A stretch of DNA of 27,154 nucleotides from a virus, in the IMG/VR virus record IMGVR_UViG_3300021062_000037, positions 1 to 27,154 of that record, one strand, 5' to 3'. Made by a program: the position numbers and the translations under genes. Below the pieces are notes generated by a model. It was not told the DNA's origin. It did not search any database and saw only the letters and a program-made list of their open reading frames with translations. Every line of letters begins with the position of its first letter. The stretch's first letter is position 1. Below are positions 9,525 through 26,867 of the stretch, one piece after another.

Positions 9525-10841
9525 ATGACCGTCCGCGACTATTCGACGACTCCGGGAAGCAACAACGCAGCACCGCCCAACGGCTGGCCAGAAGGCCAAG
9601 CGCCTAGCACGGTGAACGATTGCGCTCGCCAGATGATGGCCGAGGTACGGGAAAGCTTCGAAGAGCAGCCGTACATGGACTTCGGCGATGATCCCACGCG
9701 CGTCGATAACGACACGTTCACGGTGGCCGGTGATCTGACCGCTCGGTATCCCGTCGGCGCCCGCGTCAAGTTGGTGGGCGCCACGACCGGTACAGGCCGC
9801 ATCACGGTTTCAAGTCATGCTGCGGGTACCACCACCATCGATGTGGTAATGGACAGTGGCAACGTGCCGCTCACGCTCACGCGCGTTGCGGTGTATTCGT
9901 TCCACCTTGATTTGGATGCAAATCCCTCGGGGACTATCGGCCTGTCTGCCGTCAACGGTACTGCCTCGACCTTTCTGCGATCTGACAGTGCCCCCGCGCT
10001 CTCTCAGGCGATTGTGCCGACGTGGACCGCGTCCCATACCTTCTCAAAGGCGTACTCATCCGGTACGCCGTTGAGTAACGCTGTGGTTCTTTCATCGTCT
10101 ATACCGATGATGGCATGGAACGATTCTGATGCCGCGGCAGACAATCGGCTATGGGAGATGTTCGCTAACTCGCTGCAATTTCAGTTGCGCGCCATCACTG
10201 ACGATGTAATTACTGCATCTAACCCTGCCTTTATAGGCGTTCGAAGTGGCGCGACCATCTCGTCTTTCACTTTTCCAACCGATGCCTCTGGAGGTATTGG
10301 CGGAGTGTTCAGGGTAGGAACTGCGAACACTGCCAGTGGTTTGAACAATGTGCTTGGCCAGATCAGGACTACAGCTGCTCAGTCAGCTCTTGGAGTTAGA
10401 ACTACAACTTCAGGCAATTCACCGCTGTATGTTCACAACGAAGCGACCAGCGGCGACAACTCCCTGGTCACATTCCTTACCGACGCGGCAAGCACGAGAG
10501 GCAGTATTGATTTCGACCGAGCCGGTACGGCGGTGCGCTACAACACAACCTCAGATCGAACTCTCAAGATGAACATTGTAGACGCACAGAGCGCGATCCA
10601 AGTGCTGCAGCAAATCCGAGTGCGTGCATTCAACTGGCGAGAAACAAGTGCGCGCGTCAATTTCGGATTTGTCGCACAAGAGATTAACGAAATACTGCCG
10701 GCCGCAGTTAGCCCGGGCGATGGAAATCGCAGTTGGGCTATGGATTATTCCAAGCTTGTGCCGATATTGACGAAGGCTCTACAAGAGACGATCGCGCGCT
10801 GCGCATCTCTGGAGGAGCGGATTTCCGCGCTAAAAGCTTAA
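9525..10841 (+). CDS. Tail fiber with S74 auto-cleaving chaperone domain
   Basis: The 438-residue receptor-binding protein has three visible parts. The N-terminal anchor MTVRDYSTTPG...PSTVNDCARQMMAEVRESF is typical of podovirus fibers. A beta-rich Thr/Ser/Ala shaft follows. The C terminus, from about residue 335, is an intramolecular chaperone of the peptidase S74 type. That domain carries the catalytic Ser343 and Lys348 in SDRTLKMNI, then FGFVAQEINEILP and a coiled-coil tail (LEERISALKA). In this family the chaperone trimerises the fiber and cuts itself off at the serine. The gene ends 12 bp inside the convergent lipoprotein gene. Confidence 0.9.
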   Translation: MTVRDYSTTPGSNNAAPPNGWPEGQAPSTVNDCARQMMAEVRESFEEQPYMDFGDDPTRVDNDTFTVAGDLTARYPVGARVKLVGATTGTGRITVSSHAAGTTTIDVVMDSGNVPLTLTRVAVYSFHLDLDANPSGTIGLSAVNGTASTFLRSDSAPALSQAIVPTWTASHTFSKAYSSGTPLSNAVVLSSSIPMMAWNDSDAAADNRLWEMFANSLQFQLRAITDDVITASNPAFIGVRSGATISSFTFPTDASGGIGGVFRVGTANTASGLNNVLGQIRTTAAQSALGVRTTTSGNSPLYVHNEATSGDNSLVTFLTDAASTRGSIDFDRAGTAVRYNTTSDRTLKMNIVDAQSAIQVLQQIRVRAFNWRETSARVNFGFVAQEINEILPAAVSPGDGNRSWAMDYSKLVPILTKALQETIARCASLEERISALKA

Positions 10842-11564
10842 ATGCCGTCGGATGAACTCAATACCGGTGCCGTCCTCTGGCGCGATGTGCGCATCGATAT
10901 CCAGGACCACGAGCTCGGCCCCGCTTTGCATGGCGTAGTCAATGGCCGGCTGCGTACCGACTCTCTCGTCGTTGCGCGCGATGCGGATCATGGTGGGAAC
11001 GCGCTGAGGCAGGAGGCTGTAAGTTGCGTCGCGTGGCACATCGGCGAACTCGGTCAATTGGTACAGGTCGATCAGCGCGGCATTGCCAATGATACCCAGC
11101 ACCGGTGCGCCAACGTTGCAGGCCAGGATCGCGTACGCGCCGCGGCTGGTGCCAGCCAGGAACACAGATCGGCCGTCGATGACGGCATCCAAGCGCTGAC
11201 AAAAGCGCTCCAGCCATTCTCGACGTCCCGCCTTGATCTCGAGCGCCCAGCCCTCCAGTCCCGAGGCCTCGCACATCGGCGTATCTGCACCGTGGCAAGG
11301 CGCGTCGATTGCCTCGACCACGAAGCCTGTTTCCTTATACGCCTCAATCACATCAGAACAGCAGGTGTCACCGGCAGCCAGCGTATCTGCGGCGCTTGTG
11401 CCCACGTAAATCACAGTGATCGGTGCCGCGGCGGGGGGCGCTTGCGGGGTGGCGACCGGCTGTGGAGCCGCCTGCGCGACGGGGGCTCCAGACTGATTCA
11501 TCTGGCCGCTACCACCGCCGCAGGCGCTGAGCATCAGGGCGAGTGCTGCAATTGTCGTTTTCAT
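10830..11564 (-). CDS. Secreted lipoprotein, alpha/beta-hydrolase (esterase-like)
   Basis: I start at ATG 11564, giving 244 residues. The protein begins with a lipoprotein signal (MKTTIAALALMLSAC, lipid cysteine 15), then an Ala/Pro/Gln linker to about residue 48, then an alpha/beta-hydrolase domain. The nucleophile elbow is GTSRG with Ser140; Asp199 (ARNDER) and His226 (DIDAHI) complete a plausible triad. Cysteine pairs 68/69, 90/98 and 122/149 suggest an oxidised periplasmic domain. It runs opposite to all neighbours between the fiber and lysis genes, the classic place for a moron. It may be a cell-envelope esterase that alters surface sugars, but the substrate is unknown. Ribosome site and promoter are not obvious. 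Confidence 0.75.
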   Translation of the reverse strand: MKTTIAALALMLSACGGGSGQMNQSGAPVAQAAPQPVATPQAPPAAAPITVIYVGTSAADTLAAGDTCCSDVIEAYKETGFVVEAIDAPCHGADTPMCEASGLEGWALEIKAGRREWLERFCQRLDAVIDGRSVFLAGTSRGAYAILACNVGAPVLGIIGNAALIDLYQLTEFADVPRDATYSLLPQRVPTMIRIARNDERVGTQPAIDYAMQSGAELVVLDIDAHIAPEDGTGIEFIRRHLSF

Positions 11565-25162: not shown

Positions 25163-25192
25163 ATTGAACACCAAACGGTGAATTGCTGTCAA
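25163..25192 (-). promoter_or_regulatory. Early leftward promoter (PL-like)
   Basis: On the minus strand a perfect -35 TTGACA (25192-25187) is followed after 18 bases by TTCAAT (25168-25163), a 4-of-6 match to the -10 with TG just before it. Transcription would start near 25155 and run into the 25117 gene and the whole early operon. One operator lies between the two hexamers and a second abuts the -35. Confidence 0.7.
25167..25182. promoter_or_regulatory. Repressor operator O-L1
   Basis: AACACCAAACGGTGAA, a dyad of CACC/GGTG with a 4-bp centre, lies inside the spacer of the early promoter. Repressor bound here would block RNA polymerase. The same element occurs in the repressor/Cro region. 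Confidence 0.75.
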
Positions 25193-25212
25193 CACCAAAA
25201 GGTGAATTTAAT
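25183..25212 (+). promoter_or_regulatory. Possible divergent promoter for the 25270 gene
   Basis: On the plus strand TTGCTG (25183) and TTTAAT (25207-25212) are 18 bases apart and embrace O-L2. The -10 is good (5 of 6), the -35 weak (3 of 6 certain). It would start a transcript towards the small gene at 25270 and share repression with the early promoter. Confidence 0.25.
25191..25206. promoter_or_regulatory. Repressor operator O-L2
   Basis: AACACCAAAAGGTGAA, 24 bp (centre to centre) from O-L1 and touching the -35 of the early promoter. The near two-turn spacing would put two repressor dimers on about the same DNA face, allowing cooperation. Confidence 0.75.
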
Positions 25213-25223
25213 TTCTCAGGCAC

Positions 25224-25248
25224 AAAAAACCCGGCACAATGGCCGGGT
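25224..25248 (-). terminator. Rho-independent terminator before the early promoter
   Basis: On the minus strand a 7-bp stem ACCCGGC/GCCGGGT with a 6-base loop is followed by a run of six T. It ends leftward transcription from the immunity genes and insulates the early promoter, which begins some 30 bases further on. The stem, loop and T run are read directly. Confidence 0.85.
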
Positions 25249-25269
25249 CACTTCAATTCAGGGGGCGGG

Positions 25270-25452
25270 ATGATGCGTTACAGAGTCATTGAGGAGCTTG
25301 AAGCGCCAGAATCAGAAAGATTCGTGGTGCAGTACGACAGATACGGCGATCATTGGCGCACCAATAGCCGACACCCAGACCAGCTGAGCGCAGAGATCGC
25401 AATGGAGCGACTAGCCAACGGGCCGCGTATAGTCGCCAAGATGGAGGGCTAA
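25270..25452 (+). CDS. 60-residue plus-strand protein of the immunity region
   Basis: Two ATG codons in tandem (25270 and 25273) follow GGGGGCGGG. The product (MMRYRVIEELEAPESERFVV, then YGDHWRTNSRHPDQLSAEIA, ending VAKMEG) looks like a real small alpha/beta protein. It is the only plus-strand gene between the early promoter and the Cro-like gene. Its stop overlaps the stop of the convergent gene. It may be fired from a promoter overlapping the operators. No family recognised. Confidence 0.55.
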   Translation: MMRYRVIEELEAPESERFVVQYDRYGDHWRTNSRHPDQLSAEIAMERLANGPRIVAKMEG

Positions 25453-25679: not shown

Positions 25680-26048
25680 CTACTGCTTCAAGCGTATGGC
25701 ATCGCCTATGCACTTGACGGAAGAAAAGCAGTTGTTCAACACATCAGAATCTGAGCGTCGCTGGCAGAAAGTGTTGATCACCGCATCAGCACCGAGCTTC
25801 GCCGCTCTTATCTTGACTCCTTCAAGAGCCTCGGCTTCCGTGACATTCCCGGCTTGATATGCATTTCTGTGACAGGAAAGACCGCTTACTTCGCCGATCT
25901 TCTCGTAATCCACAGTCGGTGTGTCCTGCAGCACAACTATCTTTGAAAGTCGCGCCCTCTGGTCGGATGTAAGGCTGTCCACGGATGGGTTCGTCATGCA
26001 ACCAGATAAGCCAGCAGACAGGCCCAAGCCGATGATCAACATCCTCAT
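25680..26048 (-). CDS. RcsF-like outer-membrane lipoprotein
   Basis: The 122-residue protein starts with a lipoprotein signal (MRMLIIGLGLSAGLSGC, lipid Cys17), with GAGGGA as ribosome site. The C-terminal domain resembles RcsF, the sensor of envelope stress: IGEVSGLSC, then KIRAAKLGADAVINTFC, then the ending VKCIGDAIRL. Four cysteines (59, 95, 107, 113) are spaced much like the four disulfide cysteines of RcsF. In the Rcs system RcsF signals through IgaA. Here the gene lies beside the repressor, so it may be expressed in lysogens and alter envelope sensing. Homology is by pattern. Confidence 0.7.
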   Translation of the reverse strand: MRMLIIGLGLSAGLSGCMTNPSVDSLTSDQRARLSKIVVLQDTPTVDYEKIGEVSGLSCHRNAYQAGNVTEAEALEGVKIRAAKLGADAVINTFCQRRSDSDVLNNCFSSVKCIGDAIRLKQ

Positions 26049-26528: not shown

Positions 26529-26557
26529 ATGCTAGGCGCGTGACACCATTTGGTGAA
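26529..26557 (-). promoter_or_regulatory. Possible repressor maintenance promoter (PRM-like)
   Basis: Minus-strand TTCACC (26557-26552) and TAGCAT (26534-26529) are 17 bases apart, each 4 of 6. The start point would fall at or next to the repressor ATG, giving a leaderless message like lambda cI. The -35 lies within operator O-R3. Confidence 0.35.
26542..26557. promoter_or_regulatory. Repressor operator O-R3
   Basis: GACACCATTTGGTGAA, nearest the repressor gene. The 12-bp centre CACCATTTGGTG is a perfect palindrome apart from nothing more than its A/T core. Binding here would shut off the repressor's own promoter. Confidence 0.7.
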
Positions 26558-26573
26558 TTCCCCGTTTGGTGTT
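26558..26573. promoter_or_regulatory. Repressor operator O-R2 (one mismatch)
   Basis: Read on the minus strand this is AACACCAAACGGGGAA, one base different from O-L1. It abuts O-R3 with no gap (16 bp centre to centre) and covers the -35 of the rightward promoter. Confidence 0.6.
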
Positions 26574-26595
26574 GCATCATTCAACACCGTATGGT
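26566..26595 (+). promoter_or_regulatory. Rightward promoter (PR-like) for the Cro-like gene
   Basis: TTGGTG (26566) and TATGGT (26590-26595) are 18 bases apart. Both hexamers are imperfect (4 of 6), but position between operators and just before the Cro-like ATG supports them. The leader would be only a few bases. Confidence 0.4.
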
Positions 26596-26598
26596 GAA
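26583..26598. promoter_or_regulatory. Repressor operator O-R1
   Basis: AACACCGTATGGTGAA, next to the Cro-like start and overlapping the rightward -10. It keeps the full CACC/GGTG dyad and lies 25 bp from O-R2. Confidence 0.75.
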
Positions 26599-26606
26599 GT
26601 AGCGGC

Positions 26607-26867
26607 ATGGAGCTAAAAGAGTTTCTCAAGAGCAGTTCAGTCGCCGAGCGAGAGTCGTTTGCACGTCGCTGCGGAACAACCTTGCGACATCTCAATAATG
26701 TCGCGTACGGCTGCAAGACCTGCGGTGAATCTCTTGCGGTCAACATAGATAGAGAATCTGAGGGCCTGGTTTCGTGCGAGACCATGCGGCCCGATGTTGA
26801 CTGGGCGTACCTGCGCGGCTCGCGCTCCTCGCCCGACGGATCGACCACCCTCAAGCGTGCGGGCTGA
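26607..26867 (+). CDS. YdaS/Cro-like DNA-binding regulator
   Basis: The 86-residue protein follows the YdaS/Cro pattern: MELKEFLKSSSVAERESFAR, then CGTTLRHLNNVAYGCKTCGE with the recognition helix, then SLAVNIDRESEGLVSCETMR and RPDVDWAYLRG. It is divergent from the repressor and should bind the same operators to favour lytic growth. The family is also met as the antitoxin-like member of the YdaST pair, but no YdaT gene follows here. Ribosome site weak (GAAG). Confidence 0.85.
   Translation: MELKEFLKSSSVAERESFARRCGTTLRHLNNVAYGCKTCGESLAVNIDRESEGLVSCETMRPDVDWAYLRGSRSSPDGSTTLKRAG

Follow-up and report, generated by a model that had tools for sequence, protein, structure and literature searches.

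A lipoprotein gene lies beside the repressor in the immunity region

The window, by which we mean the whole stretch of DNA analysed here, comprises 27,154 bases and corresponds to a complete, linear virus record. The closest matches of the phage's head protein, ATPase and integrase are only distant ones and come from mixed hosts. An earlier note on this DNA had pointed to an open reading frame with a lipobox and the phrases IGEVSGLSC and VKCIGDAI, and all of these are indeed present at the named place, on the minus strand (Table 1). The gene starts with ATG, preceded at about 8 nt by GAGGG as a plausible ribosome site. The lipobox of its product reads L14-S-G-C17, with Met at the +2 position followed by Thr, and the two phrases occupy residues 51-59 and 111-118, respectively.

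Table 1. Coordinates of the features discussed in the text
Feature	Coordinates	Strand	Remarks
Lipoprotein gene, 122 aa	25680..26048	-	signal peptide 1-16, lipidated C17 (predicted), folded domain ~21-120, C59/C95/C107/C113
Phage repressor, 126 aa, helix-turn-helix	26141..26521	-	PHROG 5736 transcriptional regulator, E=3e-9; Pfam HTH_3 weak
Small ORF downstream of the lipoprotein gene (ORF59), 59 aa	25449..25628	-	TTG start after AAGGAG; no family match
Intrinsic terminator closing the presumed repressor-lipoprotein-ORF59 transcript	25228..25249	-	RNA fold -15.2 kcal/mol, z -2.6
Right operator-like cluster, repressor/Cro-like gap	26543..26598		three ACACCNNNNGGTGAA-like sites, a single mismatch in one of them
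Left operator-like cluster, ahead of leftward early genes	25168..25206		two ACACCNNNNGGTGAA sites
Cro-like/YdaS-like regulator, diverging from the repressor	26607..26867	+	PHROG 35, E=3e-11; Pfam YdaS_toxin 26.6 bits, below the cut-off of 30

The immunity-region setting proposed in the same note is borne out by the repressor gene, the divergent Cro-like gene and five operator-like sites. These sites form two clusters flanking the presumed lysogenic operon, a number that none of 100 shuffled sequences reached (mean 0.38). The repressor gene comes first in this operon, and the lipoprotein gene follows it on the same strand after a gap of 92 bp. The repressor, lipoprotein and ORF59 genes have a GC content of 52%, compared to 60% for the phage. 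A scan around the operon revealed no site resembling a sigma-70 promoter. Because the lipoprotein gene sits in the repressor operon, its expression in lysogens is predicted; the earlier suggestion of such expression is supported as far as the place of the gene is concerned.

The region between the repressor and N is a common site of morons, rexAB being one example, and bstA of phage BTP1 is co-transcribed with cI over an 88-bp gap (PMC7067206). In lambda (rexAB) and in BTP1/P22-like phages (bstA) the cargo likewise lies 3' of the repressor, in the same orientation and before the leftward operator (PMC7067206). However, the rexAB and bstA products are cytoplasmic or inner-membrane proteins and unrelated to the one described here, which is predicted to be an exported outer-membrane lipoprotein.

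Two minor observations concern the surroundings of the operon. The YdaS-like protein occupies the position of Cro, and an ORF of 60 aa without a family match (25270-25452, plus strand) starts just beyond the terminator, tail to tail with ORF59. A search for relatives of the repressor in viral contigs found none, and contigs that share the Sak4-like ATPase gene of this phage have different regulatory regions.

The lipoprotein is predicted to contain an RcsF-type core

It had been claimed that the protein resembles RcsF, and comparisons at the level of both profile and structure agree with this. The Pfam RcsF family (PF16358) matched with E=3e-7 and 30.8 bits, a narrow pass of the curated gathering cut-off of 29. 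In a phmmer search against solved structures, RcsF chains were the best matches (E about 0.003), and the family profile also retrieved RcsF chains (E 3e-5). The phmmer match to the T4 baseplate protein gp53 (E=1.1) was rejected as noise. PHROGs contained no family for the lipoprotein, and PADLOC gave no match.

An AlphaFold model built from an alignment of 14 family members reached a mean pLDDT of 82.7. Its top match in the PDB was RcsF (2y1b; TMt 0.85, rmsd 1.7 A, prob 1.00), followed by RcsF in the IgaA co-crystal (9biy), RcsF with BamA (6t1w) and then YbjQ/DUF74 proteins; matches ranked beyond 14 were discarded as noise. As the best PDB matches are RcsF and then YbjQ/DUF74, the core is predicted to be an RcsF-type domain.

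The four cysteines are spaced by 36/12/6 residues, nearly as C74/C109/C118/C124 of E. coli RcsF (35/9/6), again as claimed earlier, and all four RcsF disulfide cysteines are aligned in 16 of the 16 family members. They would be expected to form two disulfides. The phage lipoprotein and RcsF (PF16358; PRK10781/NF008048; PDB 2y1b, 2l8y, 6t1w, 9biy), the outer-membrane stress sensor of E. coli, thus have in common a lipobox, a core fold of about 85 residues, four cysteines at nearly equal spacing and the VSGxSC and CxG motifs. At the sequence level, this likeness is more than chance.

Parts of RcsF that serve signalling are missing from the family

In RcsF, a disordered linker of about 32 residues joins the lipid anchor to the core, and in cells with a widened periplasm signalling could be regained by lengthening this linker (PMC5736177). 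This 32-residue linker is absent from the phage lipoprotein, in which about 20 residues separate the lipid anchor from the first core strand. Residues 21-40 are predicted to be folded (block pLDDT 91-93, with a helix at 28-34).

The second loss affects the loop that carries A55, L58 and F63 of RcsF. These residues bind IgaA, and the substitutions A55K, L58Y and F63A weaken the binding (PMC13317618). Residues 53-65 are predicted to extend across the lumen of the porin, the same region contacts outer-membrane proteins (OMPs), and OMP assembly needs S127 (PMC9907809). In the phage family the loop is three residues shorter, and L58 is deleted in every aligned member. The F63 equivalent is Y/H/A/S across the family: it is Tyr in the window protein, Ala in a Serratia phage and similar lambdoid contigs, and Ser in an E. 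coli prophage copy; IgaA is expected to be present in the hosts of the Serratia phage and the lambdoid contigs and in E. coli. The position of S127 is occupied by an invariant Asp. Unlike RcsF, the phage protein also has a folded helix at its N-terminus, with a motif centred on R31, and its gene is phage-borne and placed in a repressor operon.

The NCBIfam RcsF equivalog PRK10781 scored the lipoprotein at 30.5 bits, 110 bits short of its cut-off of 140. In the two metagenome-assembled genomes (MAGs) that hold the closest cellular relatives, IgaA was not detected at E<=10, with a positive E. coli control, though these MAGs may be incomplete.

By these tests, the lipoprotein appears to have an RcsF core without the RcsF signalling parts. 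The earlier note had called it a copy of the envelope-stress sensor, and it is here that we depart from it, because the linker is absent, the contact loop is shortened, the equivalog cut-off is missed and the relatives' genomes have no detectable IgaA. We strongly infer that the lipoprotein would be unable to perform Rcs signalling. The same note had proposed that it could act on the Rcs response and so on capsule or receptor display; direct signalling via IgaA is unlikely. It is plausible, on the other hand, that it alters the surface of the lysogen by a non-Rcs route.

The family is rare, scattered and mainly phage-borne

A scan of viral contigs with the single lipoprotein sequence found no relative. 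A four-sequence profile retrieved eleven, and a wider profile added none. Besides these 11 IMG/VR contigs, members were found in Serratia phage BZS1, in E. coli prophages and in two MAGs; searches of plasmids gave no match. The family is small, rare, scattered and mainly phage-borne, and 7 of 15 members match PF16358 at E<=0.01. It falls into two groups, one near the window protein (46-52% identity), whose members were found in unrelated phages, and an enteric group (33-36%) whose members have an inserted loop.

Among the E. coli prophage genes, the one encoding WP_000717788.1 (L022, 2198-2629), annotated as a hypothetical protein, is a family member by alignment, and it has a DNA match in at least 19 of 5,426 complete E. 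coli genomes. Profile searches in the taxonomic classes of the two MAGs returned, for the first (274 genomes), only the starting genome together with two borderline matches (E about 5e-5) and, for the second (289 genomes), the starting genome alone. The two cellular copies lie outside clear prophages, near restriction, PIN-domain or integrase-like genes, and probably sit in mobile islands. In the alphaproteobacterial MAG (L004; 7956-12212 and 16069-16323), the genes beside that of the lipoprotein encode a PIN_12 protein and a large protein that is uncharacterised; an integrase-like fragment lies close by, and this neighbourhood suggests a mobile island.

The gene behaves as accessory cargo in other phages

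The place of the gene differs from one phage to another. In three contigs (L005-L007) it is antisense to both of its neighbours and stands beside late genes (endolysin or terminase), with endolysin genes nearby in L005 and L006. Elsewhere (L002, L009-L015) it lies between replication/Q genes and lysis genes, and in L012 it is flanked by two terminator-like sites. HicA/HicB-like toxin-antitoxin genes adjoin it before the lysis genes in three contigs (L009 and L011, 5157-5789; L013, 6568-7200), upstream in two of them and downstream in one. Cargo is commonly found in the slot that separates Q from the lysis genes. None of the six records sharing the Sak4-like ATPase gene carries the lipoprotein gene. 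Since the sites vary and the presence is patchy, as is the case with cargo genes, we consider the lipoprotein gene to be accessory cargo.

A prophage accessory gene acting at the envelope is the favoured explanation

The lipoprotein signal, the RcsF-type core, the four conserved cysteines, the operon layout, the operator-like sites and the putative terminator can be read directly from the DNA and its translation. The identity of the protein, its predicted fold and its placement in a lysogenic operon, taken jointly, are held with high confidence. We speak, with a probability of about one half for the reading as a whole, of a moron, an accessory gene that the prophage carries in its lysogenic operon, probably serving superinfection exclusion or lysogenic envelope conversion.

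In the mechanism that we propose, the repressor, lipoprotein and ORF59 genes would be transcribed together in the lysogen, between the two operator clusters and as far as the terminator. The lipoprotein would be exported by Sec, lipidated at C17 and sorted by Lol to the outer membrane, as judged from the E. coli Lol rule (no Asp at +2; here the residue is Met), and its two disulfides would form. Because it has no long linker, it would remain near the outer membrane's inner face, neither threading a porin nor reaching IgaA. There it may bind an outer-membrane or phage-derived partner, and the lysogen might in consequence become harder to infect by other phages, or its envelope might be otherwise changed. 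Superinfection exclusion is favoured as the specific benefit, though it is somewhat less likely than not, by analogy with other small phage lipoproteins that block phages (PMC11893012).

After exclusion, we would rank general lysogenic conversion, lysis timing, an Rcs decoy and an Rcs agonist, in this order of decreasing likelihood. The first of these holds that the lipoprotein aids the host cell itself, by envelope repair, metal or peptide binding or antimicrobial resistance, and does not exclude phages. The protein belongs to the same fold superfamily as the YbjQ/DUF4156 proteins, and the cellular copies in two MAGs outside clear prophages would fit such a function. However, those copies probably sit on mobile islands, members of the family are very seldom found in cells, and we regard this explanation as rather unlikely.

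It might also be assumed that the protein is a late product which adjusts the disruption of the outer membrane or the timing of lysis. A lysis-linked role was proposed by the authors who described Serratia phage BZS1 (PMC7556043), in which, as in similar lambdoid contigs, the gene stands directly before those for the holin, lysozyme and Rz. In the enteric phages, read in the late direction, the gene comes ahead of the lysis cassette, which would also fit this role, as would the endolysin genes near it in two further contigs. On the other hand, the window gene is in the repressor operon, away from the lysis genes, the gene in L005-L007 runs antisense to both neighbours, and the slot before the lysis genes is one that cargo commonly uses and that HicAB genes share in three contigs. 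An involvement in lysis thus seems quite unlikely.

A decoy that silently occupies the partners of RcsF (OmpA/OmpC/OmpF, BamA or IgaA) and dulls a response that would otherwise hinder the lysogen or the induced phage is a still weaker candidate, and we consider it very improbable. A dominant-negative form might resemble an RcsF core that lacks the signalling loop, and several members are in enteric-type prophages. Nevertheless, contacts with OMPs are made by the very loop region that is deleted, the S127 needed for OMP assembly is replaced throughout the family (PMC9907809), and relatives occur without detectable IgaA. The opposite effect, in which an RcsF copy made by the lysogen binds IgaA and activates Rcs so that capsule shields against other phages, is the least credible of all: the fold, the cysteines and the Pfam score are those of RcsF, and Rcs and capsule have been linked to E. 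coli survival of phage attack (PMC10746221), but the linker with its known role (PMC5736177) is absent, L58 is lost and F63 is replaced by Tyr, Ala or Ser in the shortened A55/L58 loop (PMC13317618), and the search of the two cellular genomes with close relatives gave no IgaA match at E<=10.

A more far-reaching scenario, which we deem unlikely, is offered as speculation. Phages may have repeatedly taken up the RcsF core and shed its linker and partner-binding loop, the outcome being a disulfide-locked, prophage-expressed outer-membrane lipoprotein, a version of the stress sensor that is dominant-negative or directed to a new target and that guards the envelope of the lysogen against other phages.

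Relation to other phage lipoproteins

RcsF-like lipoproteins of phages were already known as annotations in BZS1 (PMC7556043) and in Pseudomonas phage vB_PaeM-G11 (PMC10142737); the present analysis adds the family as such, the loss of signalling parts common to its members and the location in a repressor operon. In the literature on RcsF-like phage proteins, we found none with a tested function. The BZS1 protein p65 (vB_SspM_BZS1; QNO00959.1), an 'RcsF-like outer membrane lipoprotein' for which its authors found no viral relatives (PMC7556043), now forms a family with at least a dozen phage contigs. It is about 36% identical to the window protein, and the two have the same cysteines and a short N-terminal segment. 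However, p65 has an extra loop of ~17 residues after the first cysteine, and its gene precedes the lysis cassette and is not in a repressor operon. The E. coli prophage protein WP_000717788.1 likewise shares the lipobox, the four cysteines and the lack of a long linker with the window protein, and differs from it by the enteric-type loop insertion and by a gene site directly upstream of antiterminator Q. ORF2 of vB_PaeM-G11 (WEM05591.1), annotated as RcsF (PMC10142737), is a phage lipoprotein that aligns with the same superfamily, but it is divergent, keeps two of the four cysteines and is encoded next to the integrase; tblastn with the window protein did not find it.

Cor (phi80, N15, HK022), Llp (T5) and Lpp of mEp021/mEp010 are also small phage-encoded outer-membrane lipoproteins (PMC11893012), the likeness being one of type alone. 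Those that were tested block superinfection, and OmpA- or LamB-dependent phages are excluded by other small phage lipoproteins of this kind (PMC11893012). Genes of the Cor/Llp type are mostly found in structural-gene regions, in contrast to the window gene in its repressor operon.

The difference from RcsF is shared by the whole family and is testable. Should these proteins exclude phages or alter the envelope, an exported class with the RcsF fold would join the cargo of repressor operons. The family also cautions against taking phage genes automatically annotated as 'RcsF' for Rcs regulators.

It needs to be added that the window contains a second lipoprotein gene (MKTTIAALALMLSACGGG...), at 10830-11564 on the minus strand, with weak matches to alpha/beta-hydrolases. 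It opposes the structural genes, just after a tail-region gene, and looks like further cargo.
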